NCBI GenBank assembly: GCA_944376795.1
Contig: CALWDW010000016.1
Location: 1-59,160 of the forward strand
DNA: 59,160 nucleotides
Origin: an uncultured Christensenellaceae bacterium
Lineage (GTDB): Bacteria; Bacillota; Clostridia; Christensenellales; UMGS416
Reading direction: 5' to 3'
Position numbers and translations under genes: made by a program. Below the pieces are notes generated by a model. The model searched no databases. It saw nothing but the letters and a program-made list of their open reading frames with translations, and was not told the DNA's origin. This document shows positions 2,106 through 38,929 of this stretch, one piece after another. How positions within the stretch are numbered: position 1 is the stretch's first letter; each line of letters opens with the position of its first letter.

Positions 2106-2127
2106 AGTGCCGGTTCCGGCGGAACCG

Positions 2128-2280
2128 GCCAGGTGCCCGCTTCGGCGGGTGAAAAGGGAAAGCGGTCCAATGCCGCTGCAGCCCCCGCTACTGTAGGATG
2201 CGACAAACCGCGCATTCGCCACCCGCAAGGGGAAGGCGCGCGGCGAGGATGACCATCGAGCCAGGAGACCTGCCTGTACG
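2128..2280 (+). ncRNA. Cobalamin riboswitch
   Basis: The conserved pieces occur in order: an AGGTGCC opening (2130..), the GGGAAAGCGGT core (2156..), GCAGCCCCCGCTACTGT with the B12-box-like core (2178..2194), and the closing GAGCCAGGAGACCTGCC (2258..2274), whose GACCTG can pair with the opening to form P1. This is the adenosylcobalamin-type arrangement. About 95 nt lie between it and the btuF start and include GC-rich arms that could mask the weak ribosome binding site. No T-tract terminator is seen there, so control of translation is more likely than of termination. It fits the downstream importer. Confidence 0.92.
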
Positions 2281-2372
2281 GCGTCCGCATGAGCGCGAGG
2301 ATTGGCGGGCATCTGCGCGCCCAGGAGCAAATCAACTCTGCGCGCACGGGCGGTGCGCAACGAAAGGATGAA

Positions 2373-22092: not shown

Positions 22093-23295
22093 TCATCCCA
22101 GGTGAAACTCTCGATGCAGCGCCTGCACGGCATCCACCGCCTGCTCCTTGGCCACCAGGCAGGAGATGGTCATGTGGGAATCGGCCGTCTGCAGGATGGC
22201 CACCCCGGCCTGCCGCAGGGCATGGGCAATGCGGGCCATGACGCCCGGAACCCCGCGCATTTTGTGGCCGATGCAGGAAACCTTCACGCAGTTTCCCACA
22301 ACCTGTGGCTCCACCCCCATGGCGTGGAAGCGCTCCACCGCTCTCTCCTTATCCTCCTCCGCCACCGTACAGGCCATGTGCCCGGGGAAGATATTGATTA
22401 AGTCAATGCTTATATCATGGTCCGCCAGGTCGCTCAGGAGCCTGTCGGCCTTTTCCGCGTCCTCCAGGGAGGCCGTCAGCTGGGCGCGGCCGGGCATTTG
22501 GGCGATGGACGTCATAATATCGCCCTCCTCGGGAGCGGCAGCCGGAGCACCGTGGGCGGAAATCCGCGTCCCGGCCTCCTCGCTGAAGGTATTGCGCACG
22601 ATGAGCGGAATATTACCCCGCATGGCCACCTCCACGGCAGAGGGATGGATAACGTGGGCTCCTTCATCGGCCATTTGGAAGACCTCCGCATAGCTGACGC
22701 TGTCAATCACCCGCGCCTCGGAGACGACCCGCGGATCGGCGGTCATAATACCATCTACATCGGTATAAATTTCAATGGCGTCGGCATGCAGGGCTACCCC
22801 CAGCAGCGAGGCGGTGGTGTCGCTGCCGCCGCGTCCCAGCGTAGTCAGGTCGCCGTTCCGGCTGGCTCCCTGAAATCCCGCCACCACCGGCACAATGCCC
22901 TCCTTCAGGCACCCCATAATCCGCGTAGGCTCCACATGAAGGCAGCCAGCCTTGCCGAACCGCTCGTCGGTCAGGATGCCCGCCTGGGCGCCGGTAAGCG
23001 CGGATGCCGCGATGCCATGGGAGATCAGCGTCCCCGCCATGACCACCGACGAAATGATTTCCCCGCAGCCCGCCAGCAGATCCCGATCCCGCGGCGGCAG
23101 ATCGGCGCAGGCCTCCGCCCCCAGGGAGAGCAGCGTATCGGTGGCATAAGGCTCTCCGCGGCGGCCCATCGCGGAAACGACCACCACCGGCGTATAGCCG
23201 CACTGCATGGCTTTATGCACCTTCTCTACCACGCGCAGGCGGCTTTCTGCCGTTGAGACCGATGTGCCTCCGAATTTCTGGATGATGATTTTCAT
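22093..23295 (-). CDS. dapG: Aspartate kinase (DapG type)
   Basis: 400 aa. An amino-acid-kinase domain starting KIIIQKFGGTSV, with FQGASRNGDLTTLGRGGSDTTA and IYTDVDGIMTADPRVV, then two ACT regulatory domains (EGDIMTSIAQMPGRAQLTA and the SCIGHKMRGVPGVMARIAHAL part). It makes aspartyl phosphate for lysine, dipicolinate, threonine and methionine. The place after dpaB copies the Bacillus spoVF-dapG order, which suggests the diaminopimelate-sensitive isozyme feeding spore dipicolinate. Unlike Bacillus, asd and dapA are missing here. The start at 23295 has an AAGGAGG site. Confidence 0.92.
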   Translation of the reverse strand: MKIIIQKFGGTSVSTAESRLRVVEKVHKAMQCGYTPVVVVSAMGRRGEPYATDTLLSLGAEACADLPPRDRDLLAGCGEIISSVVMAGTLISHGIAASALTGAQAGILTDERFGKAGCLHVEPTRIMGCLKEGIVPVVAGFQGASRNGDLTTLGRGGSDTTASLLGVALHADAIEIYTDVDGIMTADPRVVSEARVIDSVSYAEVFQMADEGAHVIHPSAVEVAMRGNIPLIVRNTFSEEAGTRISAHGAPAAAPEEGDIMTSIAQMPGRAQLTASLEDAEKADRLLSDLADHDISIDLINIFPGHMACTVAEEDKERAVERFHAMGVEPQVVGNCVKVSCIGHKMRGVPGVMARIAHALRQAGVAILQTADSHMTISCLVAKEQAVDAVQALHREFHLG

Positions 23296-23305
23296 CGTTT
23301 CCTCC

Positions 23306-23902
23306 TTAGTCGTCTCCTCCGCGGCGCAGAAGTATGGGATGGTACTGCTTACCCTGCAGCGCCAGTTCACAGACCTCAGGGATCAGCCGCATATCGGCCA
23401 CCACAGAGTTGGGTTTCTTGGCTATGTCATCCTGGTAATAGGGCACCAGATAAACATTTTTCATATTGGCTAGCATGCCGATGTTCTTGGCGCTGTTCCC
23501 CATGCCGTCATTGGTGGAGATGCCAATGACCACCGGGCCACCGTTGCGCAGCTGGCTCTTGGCCGCCATGAGGGCCGGGGTATCAATGATGCCCAGCGCC
23601 AGCTTGGCGGCGCTGTTCCCCGTACAGGGTGCCACGACCACCATATCCAGCAAGCGCCTGGGGCCTATAGGTTCGGTCTGCATCAAGGTATGCATGACCT
23701 CCTGCCCGCATATAGCCTCCACACGCTGGCGCAGCTCCAGCGCCTTAAAGAACCGCGTGTCGCAGTCATAGACATGATAGGAGAATATGGGGGTGACAAT
23801 CGCGCCCCGATTCACCAGTTCCTGCATCGCGGGCAGCGTATCCGCCAGCGTGCAAAAAGATCCCGTCATCGCAAAACCGATCTTCTTATTCCGCAAGATC
23901 AT
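23306..23902 (-). CDS. dpaB: Dipicolinate synthase subunit B
   Basis: 198 aa flavoprotein-fold subunit (SpoVFB). KKIGFAMTGSFCTLADTLPAM is the usual N-terminus, followed by VVVAPCTGNSAAKLALGIIDTPALMAAK and STNDGMGNSAKNIGMLAN. With DpaA it converts dihydrodipicolinate to dipicolinate, stored in the spore core. It lies 10 bp before dapG and 63 bp after dpaA. Its presence is firm evidence that the organism makes endospores or descends from one that did. Confidence 0.95.
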   Translation of the reverse strand: MILRNKKIGFAMTGSFCTLADTLPAMQELVNRGAIVTPIFSYHVYDCDTRFFKALELRQRVEAICGQEVMHTLMQTEPIGPRRLLDMVVVAPCTGNSAAKLALGIIDTPALMAAKSQLRNGGPVVIGISTNDGMGNSAKNIGMLANMKNVYLVPYYQDDIAKKPNSVVADMRLIPEVCELALQGKQYHPILLRRGGDD

Positions 23903-27904: not shown

Positions 27905-27947
27905 ATGCAAAAAGAGGTCCGCATCCCGGAATAGGATGCGGACCTCT
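27905..27947 (-). terminator. Terminator between the MATE gene and the homocysteine-operon tail (bidirectional)
   Basis: A 14-bp perfect stem, AGAGGTCCGCATCC (27913..27926) with 27934..27947. On the minus strand it is followed by TTTTTGC, so it ends the operon coming from the right; it may also stop the MATE transcript. Confidence 0.85.
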
Positions 27948-27977
27948 TGGATTACAAATCCAGTTTGCTCTGGGGGC

Positions 27978-28379
27978 CTACATATCCCAGCCCATTTCCC
28001 CGCCCTCATAGGCCATGGTGGTCATCAGGGCGTTATTGGCCTGGGTGGCATCCAGCCGGCTGTACTGCACCACCACCGGGATATCCGACACCACCAGAGC
28101 GGCATAGGGCTTCCCCTGCGGAATCTGCCGGCCCTCATAGGAATGCAGGGCGTTCATGCGGATATGGCTGGTGCGGCGGGCAGGGCAAACCGCCGTGAAA
28201 TTCTCCCAGGGCTCCTCGTCCTCAAAATACAGGGTGACATTCAGGGTTGCATCTCCATCCCCCGTATTGAGTACGCACAGGGATTCGTGGCTCTGATACG
28301 CCTGGGCGGCTTGGGCCGCATCGGCCACCGGCCAGTAGCAGTCGGGGATGAGCCATACGGTTTTTCCAAAGTTCTGCAT
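27978..28379 (-). CDS. Anabaena sensory rhodopsin transducer (ASRT)-like protein
   Basis: 133 aa, all-beta soluble protein. It shows the ASRT family pattern: a W-x-I-P-x-x-Y/W start (VWLIPDCYWP), HESLCVLNTGDGDATLNVTLYFED, CPARRTSHIRMN, PYAALVVSDIPVVVQYSRLD and QANNALMTTMAY. In Anabaena the founding member is a small tetramer that binds a rhodopsin and DNA; most bacterial members have no rhodopsin partner, and the fold suggests a small-ligand or sugar-binding role. No rhodopsin gene is in the window. It is the last gene of a five-gene minus-strand run starting with the homocysteine gene, 37 bp after the methyltransferase. The start at 28379 lies 8 nt after GGGAGG; the ATG at 28385 would be too close. 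Confidence 0.83.
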   Translation of the reverse strand: MQNFGKTVWLIPDCYWPVADAAQAAQAYQSHESLCVLNTGDGDATLNVTLYFEDEEPWENFTAVCPARRTSHIRMNALHSYEGRQIPQGKPYAALVVSDIPVVVQYSRLDATQANNALMTTMAYEGGEMGWDM

Positions 28380-28416
28380 TATCATTTCCTCCCTAGCTTA
28401 ACTTTTAGCATGGCGG

Positions 28417-29097
28417 CTACCATATCATAGGAATCAGCCGGTAGCCCACCGACTTCATGTAGTCATAGTACCACTCATAGTGAGCAAAGCGCCAATTGTC
28501 CTCCGCATTGACATAGATCACCAAAAGCACGATCATAATCCCCACCGGAATCATCCCCACCAAAGACCCAATCATCAGCGGTACAGACAGCCCCAGCAGG
28601 ATGGACGCCAGCGCCAAGGGATGGCGTATCACGCCATAGGCGCCATAGTTTTCGGGGCTGGGCTTTGGTTCGCCATAGTGCTCCTGGGCGTGCGGAGGGG
28701 ACGCCAGCAGGCTCTGCATGGCCAGCATGTATCCGGCCATGGCCAGGCATGCACCCAGCACCGAGGCAAAGGCCGGCATTGGCGACCAGGCAAACCGGTA
28801 CACGTCCAGTGTGGAGATCACCACGCTGGCCAGCGCCATCACACACGCGCCCAGCAGGCAGCGCCAGACGTGGCCCTTCTCGATGTCGGTACTCCAGTTC
28901 CTGCGGAAAACATGGGGCCGTCCCGCCTTCAGCATCAGGCTGTAGACAGTGAAAAGCGCCCCGTGAATTCCCACAAAAATCCACAGCCACGGACTCTCCA
29001 GCGTGCCCGCGCAGATTATCGCAGCCGCCAGGCCCGCAACGTACAGGGTCAGGAGCACCCAATAGGCCGGGATCCCCTTCTGATATTCTTCGTACAA
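28417..29097 (-). CDS. ICMT/PEMT-like integral-membrane methyltransferase
   Basis: 226 aa, five or six membrane helices. The C-terminal region carries the marks of the isoprenylcysteine carboxyl methyltransferase / phospholipid methyltransferase superfamily: YGAYGVIRHPLALASILLGL (R158-H159-P160) and AEDNWRF then YYDYMKSVGYRLIP. Such enzymes use S-adenosylmethionine to methylate membrane-embedded or small thiol/amine acceptors. The start is a TTG at 29097 with AGGAGG 6 nt upstream. It lies only 10 bp after the UPF0280 gene, so it belongs to the homocysteine operon; the link to sulfur or methyl-group metabolism is inference. The true acceptor is unknown. Confidence 0.72.
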   Translation of the reverse strand: MYEEYQKGIPAYWVLLTLYVAGLAAAIICAGTLESPWLWIFVGIHGALFTVYSLMLKAGRPHVFRRNWSTDIEKGHVWRCLLGACVMALASVVISTLDVYRFAWSPMPAFASVLGACLAMAGYMLAMQSLLASPPHAQEHYGEPKPSPENYGAYGVIRHPLALASILLGLSVPLMIGSLVGMIPVGIMIVLLVIYVNAEDNWRFAHYEWYYDYMKSVGYRLIPMIW

Positions 29098-29107
29098 TGG
29101 AAACCTC

Positions 29108-29839
29108 CTATGCAGACGCCTGGGGCGCCAGGCGAATGGCTCCCGCGGCCGCTATGTTCTCCCCCAAGATGGCCAACGCCCCTGACACATCCGGCAGGGT
29201 CATGGCCCAGTTGACAGCTTCGGCCAGATCTTCCGGTCGGCGGATCCGGTTCCCCATAGCCGTTGCGGCGGCATCGGCCAGCGCGGCGCTGTGGGAAAGA
29301 ATCAGGGCCGCATGCGCCCGGCCCCATGAAAGGGAGGGACCCACAACGCCCGCCGAGGTGCACACGCCCCACTCCCCGGGCTCAACGCAGAGGGCCAGCC
29401 GGTAGGAGAGCGGCGAATCCCCCGCATAGATGGCAATCCGGCGCTGGCACTGGGTATGGATGTATAAATCTCCGCCGTTCTCTACGATAACCTCTGGACT
29501 GAAGGGCAAAAGAGCGCGTCCCACCGCTTGGGCGATCCCCCCTGCTACCGCGGCCATGGGACCCACGCCAGCCTGGATGGCGGCTTCGGCCATCTCCCGC
29601 TCCAGGGGAAAGGCCCCGGGACGTATGGGCAGGGGTACCAGCGCCGTGGCAAACACCGGCTGGGCGGCAATCGCTCCCTCCACCTGCCCCCGCGCCGCAT
29701 CCAGAGCGGTCAGCGCCTGGGTGGGCAGGGAGCGCAGCGCCCCAATGTGCAGATCGCTCTGCTCCCTGTGAACGCGGAAGTATACCAGGTCTTCTCCCTG
29801 GTGCAGCCTCCGGTAGGTGCGGGTGATATCCTGGGCCAT
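29108..29839 (-). CDS. UPF0280 (COG2122, ApbE-like) protein of the anaerobic homocysteine system
   Basis: 243 aa. VGPMAAVAGGIAQAVGRAL and VIVENGGDLYI are the typical UPF0280 phrases, near in sequence and fold to ApbE flavin transferases; GVCTSAGVVGPSLSWGRAHA follows. In methanogens genetic work ties this family to homocysteine formation together with DUF39 and NIL-ferredoxin proteins, probably in an accessory or redox role. It begins 5 bp after the NIL-ferredoxin gene. The start at 29839 has only a weak GAGTAGG site, so coupling is likely. Confidence 0.85.
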   Translation of the reverse strand: MAQDITRTYRRLHQGEDLVYFRVHREQSDLHIGALRSLPTQALTALDAARGQVEGAIAAQPVFATALVPLPIRPGAFPLEREMAEAAIQAGVGPMAAVAGGIAQAVGRALLPFSPEVIVENGGDLYIHTQCQRRIAIYAGDSPLSYRLALCVEPGEWGVCTSAGVVGPSLSWGRAHAALILSHSAALADAAATAMGNRIRRPEDLAEAVNWAMTLPDVSGALAILGENIAAAGAIRLAPQASA

Positions 29840-29844
29840 GGCGC

Positions 29845-30255
29845 CTACTCGCCGTAGCTGAGGTGCAGGACCCCCATGGGGCAGCTCTTGATGCACATCT
29901 GGCAGACCACGCACTTCTCCTGATCGAAGCTGAGCTTGGCATCGGCATCCAAATGCAGGGCGCCGCTGGCACAAACCGCCGTGCAGGCCCCGCAGCTGAC
30001 ACAGGATTCGCTGTCCCATTGGATCGAACGGGACAGCACGGCCACACCGATCCCCTCCCGTTCCAGGAAGCGCAGGCCGTTTTGGAGATCGACTTCCTCT
30101 CCCTCCAGCTCCATAACCAGCTCGCCGGGGCGTCCGGGCTCAATGCGGGCCTGCAGGATATTAAAAATCAAATTGTAGTCCTGGATCAGATAGCTTGTAA
30201 TAGGCCGGGAAGCCGTCTCCCCGGGGAATACCAGGCGAACTTTGATGGTACTCAT
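29845..30255 (-). CDS. NIL-domain/4Fe-4S ferredoxin protein of the anaerobic homocysteine system
   Basis: 136 aa. An N-terminal NIL domain (to about residue 78, with PITSYLIQDYNLIFNILQARI), then a two-cluster ferredoxin: C85-x2-C88-x2-C91-x3-C95 and C115-x2-C118-x2-C121-x3-C125. It supplies electrons, and perhaps binds ligand, for the DUF39 enzyme. Its start overlaps the DUF39 stop by 4 nt (ATGA), showing tight coupling. NIL domains are also found in methionine ABC importers, which agrees with a sulfur-amino-acid role. Confidence 0.9.
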   Translation of the reverse strand: MSTIKVRLVFPGETASRPITSYLIQDYNLIFNILQARIEPGRPGELVMELEGEEVDLQNGLRFLEREGIGVAVLSRSIQWDSESCVSCGACTAVCASGALHLDADAKLSFDQEKCVVCQMCIKSCPMGVLHLSYGE

Positions 30256-31412
30256 GCGCGAACCTCCCGTATGGTCATGGGGTGGAAGGGGGTGTCTTCC
30301 GGGAACAGGGCGATGGGCTCCTGGAGGGTAAATTGGCCTTGGGCAATGCTGCCCTTCAGCAGCGCGGCAATCTCCCGGGCCATGGCCAGGGAAGACAGCG
30401 GCGCAGTGCGCACCCGCCGGCCCATGAGCTCGATCGAGCCGCTGCGCAGCTCCTGGTAATTGACCCGCTGAATTCCGGGACGCGCCCTTCTGCCCGTGGA
30501 GTAGTCGGTTACGGTGGTATAGAGCTCCGCATTGGGCCGGGAGAGATCATACATCAGATCCTCATCCAGCACCGGCACAGGGATGCCCACCCCCAAGTAG
30601 AGGGTACAGCCGTAGCCCTGCATGGTAGCGCCCCGCACGTAGCGGGCATTCATTGCCTTCATGTCCCCAATCAGGGCCAAGGTCGCGCCGGCATAGTCCT
30701 CGCCGTCGTCATAATGGGTATGCTTGCGCACGAACTGGGTGCCTTGCCAGGCAACCATGCCCTGGGCGCCGCCCATGAAGATCTTGGTGCCAATGCCAAT
30801 GGTACGCAGCTTGGGATCCTTAAGCAGCGGCGACAGTTCTCCCGAAGTAGAATAGGTCACGTTCCCATAACCAGGAAGCAGCGTCCCCATATAGGTATGG
30901 ATGATATGATCCGTACTGTTGGTCGCCGCAGAATAATTTTGGTAGACATTGCGGGGATTGTACATATAGGCCTGATTGCAGTCCTCAATGGTCAGGGTCG
31001 TATCCACGCTCTTGAGGGGATAGCAGTCGGTGCCTGCGCTCTCGGCATGCAGATGCACGGGACGGCGCGCAACCAAATCCTCTATCACGTGGGCCCCGCC
31101 ATACAGTATGCCCCGGTCCGCCGACGGCTCCGTGGCGCCGATGTAGGTATCCACCGCCGCCAGGCCGCCGCTAGCCTGCACCTGATTCAGCGTAATTTTT
31201 CCCATGCGAATGGGAGGGTCGCTGTGGCCAAAGTTCAAAAACGCGCCAGAGGAGCACATGGCGCCAAAGGTAGCGCAGGTCACCACGTCCACCTTTTTGG
31301 CGGCTTCCGCCACCGAAGACTCCTTCACCATGGCCACCACTTCTTCGGCGGTAAATACCGCCACCCGTCCGGTGCGTATTTTCTCATTGATTTCATCAAA
31401 AGTACGGTTCAT
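30252..31412 (-). CDS. DUF39 homocysteine biosynthesis protein (L-aspartate semialdehyde sulfurtransferase)
   Basis: 386 aa, COG1900. It makes homocysteine directly from aspartate semialdehyde, sulfide and electrons, as established for Methanosarcina, without homoserine activation. Conserved stretches: CATFGAMCSSGAFLNFGHSDPPI (C46, C53), LNQVQASGGLAAVDTYIGA, LYGGAHVIEDLV, GIGTKIFMGGAQG, QGYGCTLYLGVGIPVPV. Some archaeal forms carry C-terminal CBS domains; this one does not. It is first in the operon and has its own promoter at 31450..31478. The neighbouring hom-thrC-thrB genes use the same semialdehyde. Confidence 0.93.
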   Translation of the reverse strand: MNRTFDEINEKIRTGRVAVFTAEEVVAMVKESSVAEAAKKVDVVTCATFGAMCSSGAFLNFGHSDPPIRMGKITLNQVQASGGLAAVDTYIGATEPSADRGILYGGAHVIEDLVARRPVHLHAESAGTDCYPLKSVDTTLTIEDCNQAYMYNPRNVYQNYSAATNSTDHIIHTYMGTLLPGYGNVTYSTSGELSPLLKDPKLRTIGIGTKIFMGGAQGMVAWQGTQFVRKHTHYDDGEDYAGATLALIGDMKAMNARYVRGATMQGYGCTLYLGVGIPVPVLDEDLMYDLSRPNAELYTTVTDYSTGRRARPGIQRVNYQELRSGSIELMGRRVRTAPLSSLAMAREIAALLKGSIAQGQFTLQEPIALFPEDTPFHPMTIREVRA

Positions 31413-31449: not shown

Positions 31450-31478
31450 ACTATACCTGTTTTCGCCCACAAATGCAA
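31450..31478 (-). promoter_or_regulatory. SigA-type promoter of the homocysteine operon
   Basis: TTGCAT (31473..31478), 17 bp, TATAGT (31450..31455) on the minus strand. Just downstream lies GTTGCAC-TGTAAC (about 31431..31444), an imperfect dyad that resembles the Crp/Fnr operator at 7454..7467 but has a spacer one base shorter. I see no S-box, SMK or T-box leader: only about 30 nt separate +1 from the start. Confidence 0.65.
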
Positions 31479-35277: not shown

Positions 35278-36150
35278 TTATTCCAGGATAACCGCGCCAA
35301 TCGTATCAAAATCCAACGGGAGCGCCTGCCAATCGCCGGCAATGCCTTCCAAGCGCCGGCTCCACACCACCGCCCCCGGAACCGGCCCGGTCCACCAGGT
35401 CATCATCGTGGGGCCCGCGCCGCTGATGGTTACGGCGGCAGCGCCCGCCTGGCGGGCACAATCTTCCACCTCTCTCCAGCCGGGAATTAGGGCCGTACGG
35501 TAGGGCTGATGCATGGCATCCCCAGTGGCCACAGCCAGCTGGGAGAGGTCGCCCGTTGCCAAGCACCCGGCCAGCAGCGCCGCGCGGCTGAGGTTATATA
35601 CGGCATCCTTACGGGAGACCTGGGGAGGCAGTACGCCGCGGGACTTGGCGGTGGACAGCTCTCCGGCAGGAATCATCGCCACGCAGCGCAGCCCCTTGGG
35701 AGGATCCATGCGGAGGGCGTGCACATGTCCTGCCTCCATCACGCCCACGGTAATCCCTCCCAGCAGGGCGGGCAGCACATTGTCCGGATGCCCCTCCAGT
35801 GCCGCCGCCAGATCCAGCAGCGCCGCCCGGTCCAGAGGATATCCCGCCATAGCGTTGGCCGCCAGCAGCCCGCCTGCGATACAGGCCGCTGAGCTTCCCA
35901 GTCCCCGGGTCATGGGAATCTCATCCTCTTGGGTCAACGTTATGGTTTTGGGAACGACCCCGGCCAGCTCCCACAGCGCACACATGGACCGGTAGACCAA
36001 ATGCTCCTCCATCCGGCTCCCCGGCAGGGCAGGGATGCGGAGAACATCGCTCTCTTCCACCGTTAAGGTGTTATACAAGGCCAGCGCCATGCCCATGGAG
36101 TCAAAGCCAGGCCCCAGATTGGCACTGGTGGCAGGCACCCTAATCCGCAT
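35278..36150 (-). CDS. thrB: Homoserine kinase
   Basis: 290 aa GHMP kinase: VPATSANLGPGFDSMGMAL at the start, ATP motif PMTRGLGSSAACIAGGLLAAN, and the C-terminal ISGAGPTMMTWW. It makes O-phosphohomoserine for threonine synthase. The start overlaps the thrC stop by 11 nt. In this organism methionine may not need activated homoserine, because the homocysteine operon next door works from aspartate semialdehyde. Confidence 0.95.
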   Translation of the reverse strand: MRIRVPATSANLGPGFDSMGMALALYNTLTVEESDVLRIPALPGSRMEEHLVYRSMCALWELAGVVPKTITLTQEDEIPMTRGLGSSAACIAGGLLAANAMAGYPLDRAALLDLAAALEGHPDNVLPALLGGITVGVMEAGHVHALRMDPPKGLRCVAMIPAGELSTAKSRGVLPPQVSRKDAVYNLSRAALLAGCLATGDLSQLAVATGDAMHQPYRTALIPGWREVEDCARQAGAAAVTISGAGPTMMTWWTGPVPGAVVWSRRLEGIAGDWQALPLDFDTIGAVILE

Positions 36151-37645
36151 GGCCGCCTCCGATCCACCGCAGCAGTTCCCCGCCTACCTCGCCAGGCTCA
36201 CAGGCGCAGGTATGCAGTTCCGGCAGCGTATCCAGCGCGGTAATGGCATCGGGAAGGGATTCCTGGGCCATACCGGCCAGGATCCGCGACGCCTCTCGGT
36301 CGTCTTCACAGCGCCGGCCGGGATCCACGGCCTTGAGTACATCCAGGCTGAACTTGTACGGACTCGCGGTAGAGATGACTACGGCAGGCCGCCCTCCGTC
36401 CCGTGCCTCCTGCCGGTACTGCTCCAGCACCGAAAGGGCCACCGCCGTATGGGGATCCACCAGGCGTCCCTTCTCCCGGAAGGTGCGGGCGATGCACGCC
36501 AGCGTCGCCGCATCGTCGGCGCAGCCAGCCCACATTCCCTGGGTCATGGCGTCCAGACAGCCGCCCACGTCATAGACCCGTTCCTCCCGCAGGGCCTGCA
36601 TCCAGCCGGCCACCCGCTTCGGATCCCGTCCCGCCTTCTCGTACAGATAGCGCTCCAAGTTGCTGGAGATCAGAATATCCATGCTGGGGGATGCGGTCTG
36701 GTAGAAGGGCCGCCGGGTGCTGTAGCTGCCCGTGCGGAAGAAATCGGTCAGCACATTGTTTCGGTTGGAGGCACACAGGAAGGTATGGACGGGCAGCCCC
36801 ATAGCCTTGGCATAGGTTCCCGCCAGGATGTTGCCAAAGTTCCCGGTAGGCACCACGAAATCCACGGGCTCCCCAAAGGCCAGGATACCCTGCCGGCAAA
36901 GCTGGCCATAGGCATAGAAATAGTACACGATCTGCGGGATCAAACGACCGATATTGATGGAATTAGCCGAGGAAAGCCTCCAGCCACGCTCCCGGAGCGC
37001 CATATGCATAGCCGGATCCCCCATGATGGCCTTCACCGCGCTCTGGGCGTCGTCAAAATTTCCCCGGATGGCCCGCACCCACACATTGCCGCCCTGCTGG
37101 GTGACCATCTGCCGCCGCTGGGCCGGGCTGACCCCGTCCTGGGGATAGATAACCCCCACCCGGGTTCCCTCCACATCACAGAAGCCCTCCAGAGCCGCCT
37201 TTCCCGTATCTCCCGAGGTTGCGGCCACCACCAGCACCCCCTCATCCACCCGTTGGGTACGGATGGCGTTGACCATCAGTCGGGGCAGCAGCTGCAGGGC
37301 AATGTCCTTAAAGGCGAGGGTCGGGCCGTGATAGAGCTCCACCAGGAAGGTTTTGCCGTCCAGAGCAGAAACCGGCGCCGGCATACCCGCCTCGAAACGG
37401 CCGGGAGCGTAGGCTTGGACAGCCATCCGCGCGATATCCTCCCGCCGCATGTCGGTAAGCCAGGGTGTCAAAATCTCCTCTGCCAACACATGGTAAGGCA
37501 GTTCGGGAATACGCTGCAGTGCTTCCGGGGAAAACGCAGGAAAATCCTCCGGCACAAAGAGGCCTCCGTCTCCCGCCAGCCCCTGCAGGATGGCCTGGCT
37601 GGCCTGAACTGAATTCTCACCGCCTCGGGTGCTATGGTACAGCAT
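36140..37645 (-). CDS. thrC: Threonine synthase
   Basis: 501 aa, PLP enzyme. N-terminal MLYHSTRGG, the PLP-lysine motif YHGPTLAFKDIALQLLPRL, VVAATSGDTGKAALEGF (phosphate-binding loop) and TGNFGNILAGTYAKAMGLP. It resembles the longer class of bacterial/yeast threonine synthases. It converts phosphohomoserine to threonine. It lies 3 bp after hom and overlaps thrB. Confidence 0.95.
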   Translation of the reverse strand: MLYHSTRGGENSVQASQAILQGLAGDGGLFVPEDFPAFSPEALQRIPELPYHVLAEEILTPWLTDMRREDIARMAVQAYAPGRFEAGMPAPVSALDGKTFLVELYHGPTLAFKDIALQLLPRLMVNAIRTQRVDEGVLVVAATSGDTGKAALEGFCDVEGTRVGVIYPQDGVSPAQRRQMVTQQGGNVWVRAIRGNFDDAQSAVKAIMGDPAMHMALRERGWRLSSANSINIGRLIPQIVYYFYAYGQLCRQGILAFGEPVDFVVPTGNFGNILAGTYAKAMGLPVHTFLCASNRNNVLTDFFRTGSYSTRRPFYQTASPSMDILISSNLERYLYEKAGRDPKRVAGWMQALREERVYDVGGCLDAMTQGMWAGCADDAATLACIARTFREKGRLVDPHTAVALSVLEQYRQEARDGGRPAVVISTASPYKFSLDVLKAVDPGRRCEDDREASRILAGMAQESLPDAITALDTLPELHTCACEPGEVGGELLRWIGGGHAD

Positions 37646-37648
37646 CGG

Positions 37649-38929
37649 CTACCCCTCCTTCTCTACGCGAATGACATTGACCACCCGGTCCACCGCCTCC
37701 AGCTCCTGGATCTCCGCCATGGCGGCCTGGATGGAAAGCTCCCGTGCCGGATGGGTCACCAGCACCAAAGGTACGGGAGTGTTACGGGAAATCTGATTGA
37801 CCGTTGCCAGGCTGACCCCGTACTTGCCCATCACCCCGGCAATGGAGGCCAAGGCGCCCGGGGTATCGTTGACCAGCAGGTGCACATAGCAGGCAGTCAG
37901 CCAGTTTTTCTCCAACGGAAGCGCATCCTGCTCCCGGCCCAGCAGGAAGGCGGGATGCTCATGCTTACCGGCGTTCTTGGCCGCCATGACGATGTCCGAG
38001 ACAATGGCGCTGGCGGTGGGCAGATCTCCCGCGCCCCGGCCATACAGCATCGCGTGGCCGATGGCATCGCCATGGAGAAACACGGCGTTATAGGCCCGGC
38101 GCACCGAGGCAATGGGATGACCGTCCGGAATGAAGGTAGGATGCACCCGCACCTGCAGCCGGCCCTCCTCCACCCGGCCGATGGCCAGCAGCTTCAGGGT
38201 CAGTCCCAGGCTCTTGCCAAAGGCGATGTCCTCCGGCGTGATCGTGGTAATGCCCTCGCAGTGAATATCTTCGATGCGGATCCGCTGGCCAAAGGCCAAG
38301 GATGCCAGGATGGATAGTTTATACACCGCATCCTGCCCGCCTACGTCCATGGACGGGTCGGGTTCGGCATAGCCCTTGGCCTGGGCATCGGCCAGGGCCG
38401 CCTCATAGGACCATCCCCGCTCCGACATATTGGTCAGAATCGCATTGGTGGTTCCGTTGACGATACCCATGACCTCCAGGATCTTGTTGGCCTGGAGCGA
38501 ACGGTTAAAGGTGCCGATGACCGGGATGCCCCCCGCCACACTGGCCTCATAATAGAGCCCTGCACCGCTTTTGCGGGCGGCTTCGTCCAGTTCCTCCCAG
38601 CAGCAGGCCACCACAGCCTTGTTGGCGGTCACCACGGTCATGCCGCGGTTCAGCGCCTGGACCAGGTAGGTCCGGGCAGGCTCCACCCCGCCCATGAACT
38701 CCGCCACGATGTCGATGGTGGGGTCCTCCAAGATGTCCTCCACCCGGTCGGTGAGAAGGCTCCTCTCCACCTGGACGCTGCGGGGCTTATTCACGTCCCG
38801 CACCAGCACCCGCTTGATCTGCACCACCACATTTTCCCGCTCCAGCAGCGCTTCCTGCTGCCTCTGCAGCACCCGGAAGACACCCGAGCCGATATTCCCC
38901 AGGCCCAGAAGGGCCACATTGATCTGCAT
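37649..38929 (-). CDS. hom: Homoserine dehydrogenase
   Basis: 426 aa. NAD(P) motif LLGLGNIGSGVFRVLQ, catalytic domain with GIVNGTTNAILTNM and GYAEPDPSMDVGGQDAVYKL (catalytic Lys/Asp area), and a C-terminal ACT domain (CYVHLLVNDTPGALASIAGVMGKYGVSLATV) for feedback control, presumably by threonine. It reduces aspartate semialdehyde to homoserine. First gene of hom-thrC-thrB. Confidence 0.95.
   Translation of the reverse strand: MQINVALLGLGNIGSGVFRVLQRQQEALLERENVVVQIKRVLVRDVNKPRSVQVERSLLTDRVEDILEDPTIDIVAEFMGGVEPARTYLVQALNRGMTVVTANKAVVACCWEELDEAARKSGAGLYYEASVAGGIPVIGTFNRSLQANKILEVMGIVNGTTNAILTNMSERGWSYEAALADAQAKGYAEPDPSMDVGGQDAVYKLSILASLAFGQRIRIEDIHCEGITTITPEDIAFGKSLGLTLKLLAIGRVEEGRLQVRVHPTFIPDGHPIASVRRAYNAVFLHGDAIGHAMLYGRGAGDLPTASAIVSDIVMAAKNAGKHEHPAFLLGREQDALPLEKNWLTACYVHLLVNDTPGALASIAGVMGKYGVSLATVNQISRNTPVPLVLVTHPARELSIQAAMAEIQELEAVDRVVNVIRVEKEG

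Follow-up and report, generated by a model that had tools for sequence, protein, structure and literature searches.

A predicted ICMT-fold methyltransferase gene follows the putative homocysteine genes of an uncultured Christensenellaceae bacterium and of relatives in three further genera

Formation of homocysteine by three proteins, a DUF39 protein, a ferredoxin with a NIL domain and a COG2122 protein, has been described in Methanosarcina and Desulfovibrio, and in Desulfovibrio homocysteine is reported to require all three (PMC5764234). The homocysteine-forming type is marked in M. acetivorans by two conserved cysteines, Cys54 and Cys131, the methionine-binding NIL domain sits on the ferredoxin subunit, and an S-adenosylmethionine (SAM)-sensing CBS domain sits on the Methanosarcina DUF39 subunit (PMC12068725). 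ICMT-family proteins are known from another setting: bacterial members are numerous, and their function was unexplored before RhlM, which methylates rhamnolipid carboxylates (PMC11069360). Here we describe a putative operon on the minus strand of a 59,160-nt stretch from an uncultured Christensenellaceae bacterium (contig CALWDW010000016.1; hereafter the window, to which all positions refer), in which the same three protein types are encoded side by side. In difference to the described pathway, the trio has behind it a gene for a membrane protein predicted to have the ICMT fold and to be a methyltransferase, and this four-gene block is conserved across four genera of one family. A fifth gene, of the ASRT family, ends the run in the window. 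The elements are, in the order of transcription:

31450..31478, minus strand: candidate promoter TTGCAT-17-TATAGT, read by eye and absent from the list of a consensus scan
30252..31412, minus strand: DUF39/HcyBio protein, predicted L-aspartate semialdehyde sulfurtransferase large subunit (PF01837, 467.7 bits)
29845..30255, minus strand: NIL domain with two 4Fe-4S motifs, predicted electron-supplying subunit (PF09383, 60.4 bits; Fer4 matches; two CxxCxxCxxxC motifs)
29108..29839, minus strand: UPF0280/COG2122-type protein, predicted sulfur-trafficking partner (NF003323, which we take to be UPF0280/COG2122, 253.6 bits, cut-off 271)
28417..29097, minus strand: ICMT-fold integral membrane protein with a TTG start, predicted SAM-dependent methyltransferase of a DUF39-linked subfamily (PEMT, PF04191, 18.7 bits)
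27978..28379, minus strand: ASRT-family protein, probably a stray sugar-operon protein (PF07100, 149.5 bits)
27912..27948, minus strand: intrinsic terminator hairpin (16-bp stem, -30.2 kcal/mol, T-rich 3' side)

The five genes, read on one strand between 27978 and 31412 with gaps of -4, 5, 10 and 37 bp in gene order, had been proposed as one operon in an earlier sequence-only reading of this DNA, and our analysis confirmed both coordinates and gaps, the latter agreeing exactly when the second ATG of ASRT (28379), the one at the more favorable distance from a Shine-Dalgarno sequence, is taken as the start of that gene.

Two hallmarks of an L-aspartate semialdehyde sulfurtransferase trio were found in the window, namely the three protein types together (COG2122 by a score below the model's cut-off, and with no Pfam match for the protein at 29108-29839) and both cysteines of the COG1900a type. 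Cys53 is conserved in 80 and Cys130 in 78 of the 81 DUF39 proteins that were aligned, and the two correspond to Cys54 and Cys131 of M. acetivorans by position only, without alignment to that protein. Unlike the Methanosarcina subunit (PMC12068725), the DUF39 protein of the window showed no CBS domain in a Pfam profile search. A role for it as coenzyme M synthase (methanogenesis marker 16) was rejected by score, with TIGR03287 at 125.1 bits against a cut-off of 363.95. Comparisons were made with an order set of 248 genomes and a phylum set of 398, both of which count the window's own genome (G000), giving 644 others (247 + 397). DUF39 occurred in 14 of the 248, and at these loci it was accompanied by the NIL-ferredoxin in 14 of 14 and by COG2122 in 13 of 14; in the phylum set it occurred in 133 of 398 genomes, and each partner was present at 59 of the 60 loci examined. 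Because of the published work in other organisms, the trio is predicted to make homocysteine.

Relatives of the ICMT-like protein were retrieved by protein search from 26 of the 248 order-set genomes, and in four of these (G000, G104, G045 and G067, representing four genera of one family) the gene stands directly behind COG2122. The block DUF39-NIL-COG2122-ICMT is thereby observed in four of the five DUF39-bearing genomes among the eight sampled from the window's family. The ICMT-like proteins of G104, G045 and G067 are 45, 36 and 31% identical to that of the window, and the COG2122-ICMT gaps across the four genomes are 10, 6, -4 and -4 bp. Of 18 window genes sought in the sequence around the block in these relatives (for G045 including ~40 kb upstream of DUF39, for G067 and G104 far less), DUF39, NIL, COG2122 and ICMT were matched, and the other 14 were not. 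The sequence-only reading had suggested that the last two genes of the operon may belong to the pathway; recurrence behind DUF39-NIL-COG2122 in three further genera supports the operon membership of the ICMT-like gene, and its product may have a part in the homocysteine pathway. Two further relatives fall outside the block: G086 encodes one of 27% identity, with no DUF39 found, and that of G134 was excluded from the subfamily counts since the alignment covers no more than its 75 final residues, next to a contig edge, and no DUF39 was found in this 68%-complete genome.

What follows the ICMT-like gene varies within the block. A PatB-family C-S lyase, scoring over its curated cut-off, comes next in two of the four genomes (G045 and G067), at distances of 11 and 23 bp:

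L065:6669-7799, plus strand, and L066:3410-4558, plus strand: PatB-family C-S lyase after the ICMT-like gene, in the place that ASRT takes in the window

In G104 the gene is followed by a convergent, un-annotated ORF and in the window by ASRT; a PatB relative (44%) is encoded elsewhere in the window's genome. These PatB-family proteins strengthen the sulfur context of the ICMT-like gene.

The predicted fold of the membrane protein and its profile match to solved ICMTs place it in the ICMT superfamily. On the SAM side, H159 is kept in six of six operon-type proteins and E199 in five of six, the two being equated with H122 and E162 of RhlM by motif (the His of RHP, and the Glu) and without an RhlM alignment. 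As residues of the subfamily, Q128, A132, H136, Y141-G142-E143, R203, Y207 and W209 are invariant in all six, and positions 203, 207 and 209 are L, L and G in all 27 other relatives. The operon clade has a support of 100/100 in the tree. By these comparisons, the ICMT-like proteins of the operon are a rare subfamily of their own, in which the SAM side is kept and several acceptor-side residues are altered and fixed. Fold and SAM-side residues are thus held in common with Ma-ICMT (4a2n), Tribolium ICMT (5v7p) and RhlM, whereas the acceptor side differs and the gene lies in a homocysteine operon, not among prenylation or rhamnolipid genes. The predicted fold together with the SAM-side residues leads us to predict that the protein is a SAM-dependent methyltransferase. 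A described enzyme that works as proposed here is MddA, a membrane-bound, SAM-dependent enzyme of sulfur metabolism that S-methylates methanethiol (PMC5607357). With the MddA model NF045656, however permissive the search (E up to 1), the window protein was not matched, and MddA was absent from the solved structures matched by the ICMT profiles and from the 50 structure entries listed.

Taken jointly, we read the operon as a trio predicted to make homocysteine, behind which come a predicted ICMT-fold SAM-dependent methyltransferase, with a small thiol as its likely substrate, and an ASRT gene that likely strayed from a sugar operon; we hold this reading tentatively and with somewhat less than even confidence. 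In this scheme, sulfur derived from sulfide would be delivered with the help of the COG2122 protein and bound at Cys53 of the DUF39 protein, which would transfer it to aspartate semialdehyde; electrons would come from the NIL-ferredoxin, which would also be the methionine sensor. Surplus sulfide or homocysteine would be S-methylated by the membrane enzyme at the expense of SAM, an overflow valve that could be useful to a DUF39 protein without a SAM-sensing CBS domain. A small thiol is suggested as the acceptor by the operon context and by the polar residues fixed in the subfamily, and this is rated only slightly above a lipid acceptor. The stronger proposal, that the DUF39-linked subfamily would be a first case of an ICMT-fold enzyme devoted to sulfur assimilation in anaerobes, S-methylating the homocysteine or sulfide of its operon and so setting the level of free sulfide and homocysteine, we regard as unlikely. 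A subfamily tied to one defined pathway would narrow the possible acceptors to a few directly assayable sulfur compounds, and could show how an excess of sulfide, homocysteine or SAM is dealt with in bacteria whose DUF39 protein lacks the SAM-sensing CBS domain.

Several results weigh against a thiol methyltransferase that belongs to the trio. The PEMT score of 18.7 bits lies below the cut-off of 25, the best Foldseek E-value is only 0.034, and the reported acceptors of ICMT-family proteins are carboxylates (PMC11069360); in addition, PF04140 (ICMT) gave no match to the window protein at E up to 1. All known cases of the four-gene block come from a single small family (eight genomes sampled), a contig scan with a single peptide pattern found nothing outside that family, and in G017, its fifth genome with DUF39, neither COG2122 nor ICMT was matched at the DUF39 locus. 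A distant family, described below, shows that an ICMT gene can lie near DUF39 for other reasons.

These points bear on two alternatives. In the main one, the ICMT-like protein would methylate the carboxyl group of a lipid, glycolipid or protein, as RhlM and ICMT do, and would be placed in the operon through a common methionine/SAM supply and not through a role in sulfur chemistry; the activity of RhlM on rhamnolipid carboxylates (PMC11069360) speaks for this, as do the fold match to ICMT itself and the 22 of 26 order-set genomes in which the ICMT relative has no DUF39 beside it. We nevertheless consider it somewhat unlikely, given that acceptor-side residues are fixed in the operon clade in a manner not seen in the 27 other relatives, that the gene stays with the DUF39 trio while its surroundings change, and that PatB is its next neighbor in two of the four genomes. 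Quite unlikely, in our view, is a passenger gene that was inserted behind COG2122 long ago and has been retained by chance in one family, with no functional link. The restriction to a single family fits such an origin, and so do G017, where DUF39 has no ICMT behind it, and the distant family, in which proximity of the two genes is a by-product of another cluster. Against a passenger stands the coupling at -4 to 10 bp that has been kept in four genera despite ICMT identities of 31-45%, while none of the 14 other window genes tested was kept nearby.

The distant family in question (f59) was weighed and not counted. Of the 398 phylum-set genomes, 79 gave ICMT relatives when searched with the operon profile, and in eight of the nine DUF39 genomes of f59 the match shared the strand of DUF39 and lay 2.5-3.5 kb behind it. 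The order is DUF39-NIL-COG2122-CysK-NadE-ICMT-YebC, with CysK missing in G619 and NadE in G556:

L229:2261-7851: f59 example locus, with the DUF39 trio running into CysK-NadE-ICMT-YebC

Genes for cysteine and homocysteine formation thus lie together in this family. The cluster CysK-NadE-ICMT-YebC persists, however, in two genomes in which DUF39 was not found, G411 and G486, and in G534 the order is DUF39-NIL-COG2122-YebC with no ICMT between. The ICMT of f59 thus belongs to a cluster of its own, and for these reasons f59 was dropped as independent support for a DUF39-ICMT link. At the other DUF39 loci examined (n = 58), YebC was within the stretch in 17 and NadE in nine; the f59 ICMTs scored 41 bits against the MddA model NF045656 (cut-off 270).

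The fifth gene is a different case. The window ASRT matches PF07100 over profile positions 2-118 of 119, and its SHE..C..N ligand motif is intact (SHESLCVLN). It shares this full-length match and motif with the ASRT/TM1070 family, and differs in having sulfur genes for neighbors in place of sugar genes or a rhodopsin. Sugar binding has been proposed for the family, whose members are suggested to be ligand sensors that act on enzymes of their own operon (PMC2739507), and the sequence-only suggestion of a sugar ligand agrees with this published view. ASRT proteins are encoded in 18 of the 248 order-set and 20 of the 398 phylum-set genomes. Seven other genomes have both ASRT and DUF39 (G104, G004, G048, G329, G549, G589 and G602), and the two share a contig in none of them, with the proviso that draft contigs can part true neighbors; the DUF39 stretches of all seven gave no ASRT match either, and no ASRT was found beside DUF39 among the 644 other genomes. 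The sequence-only reading had called for a count of both extra genes next to DUF39 in other genomes, and the ICMT-like gene came through it, with ASRT found there in this genome only. Among the papers listed by searches of the open-licence PMC literature, none links ICMT or ASRT to the DUF39 pathway.

At the 35 other ASRT loci examined, class II aldolase genes were nearby in six. The remaining scanned neighbors include FGGY kinase and RhaA (G589), GH88 (G602), DeoR with an ABC ATPase (G418), a thiamine pyrophosphate enzyme (G348) and SIS with L-rhamnose isomerase (G104), and also genes that are not sugar-like (M24 peptidases next to two divergent ASRTs, an SRP-type GTPase in G082, a metallophosphoesterase in G218 and a PHP-domain protein in G184). 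In the tree the window ASRT pairs with that of G104 (61% identity) at a support of 92/88, which is below the program's bar of 95/80. The G104 gene lies between a SIS protein and a split L-rhamnose isomerase, and no ASRT stands behind the ICMT-like gene of that genome. The isomerase (L079:2977-4188, plus strand) is split in two ORFs by a frame error or as a broken gene; a search for it in the window's genome gave no match, although with a query fragment of 219 aa such an empty answer shows nothing. Probably, then, the window ASRT strayed from a sugar operon.

An alternative is that all five genes work together, ASRT being a tetramer that senses a metabolite and tunes homocysteine formation. The shared strand, the 37-bp gap, the single terminator after ASRT, the intact ligand motif and the role proposed for the family within its own operons (PMC2739507) are in line with this, and the consensus scan listed no promoter-like site in that gap (nor did it in the 10-bp spacer). 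We consider it very improbable, since no second case occurs among the 644 other genomes, with none among the seven that have both families, on shared contigs or in their DUF39 stretches, and the closest relative, in G104, sits in a rhamnose cluster. ASRT was rejected as a member of the homocysteine pathway on these neighborhood counts, and the link drawn to homocysteine in the sequence-only reading found no support.

That reading had also placed one promoter before the first gene and one T-rich terminator after the last. The terminator stands, as the -30.2 kcal/mol hairpin (27948-27912), which is not in the consensus-scan listing; TTGCAT-17-TATAGT is plausible by eye as the promoter of the operon and is likewise unlisted, the scan having returned two promoter-like sites in the region against a mean of 3.3 in shuffles, which is chance level. 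Further upstream, an inverted repeat at about 31589-31550 (by eye) lies 3' of a glycosyltransferase-like gene and may end the transcript of that gene. Aspartate-family genes flank the predicted homocysteine genes, with a minus-strand run of homoserine dehydrogenase, threonine synthase and GHMP kinase upstream of the operon (35278-38929) and an aspartokinase-like ACT-domain amino-acid kinase downstream (22093-23370, minus strand). Elsewhere in the window, a cobalamin riboswitch (2114-2291, plus strand, 104.4 bits) lies immediately ahead of genes for a periplasmic binding protein and a FecCD permease.

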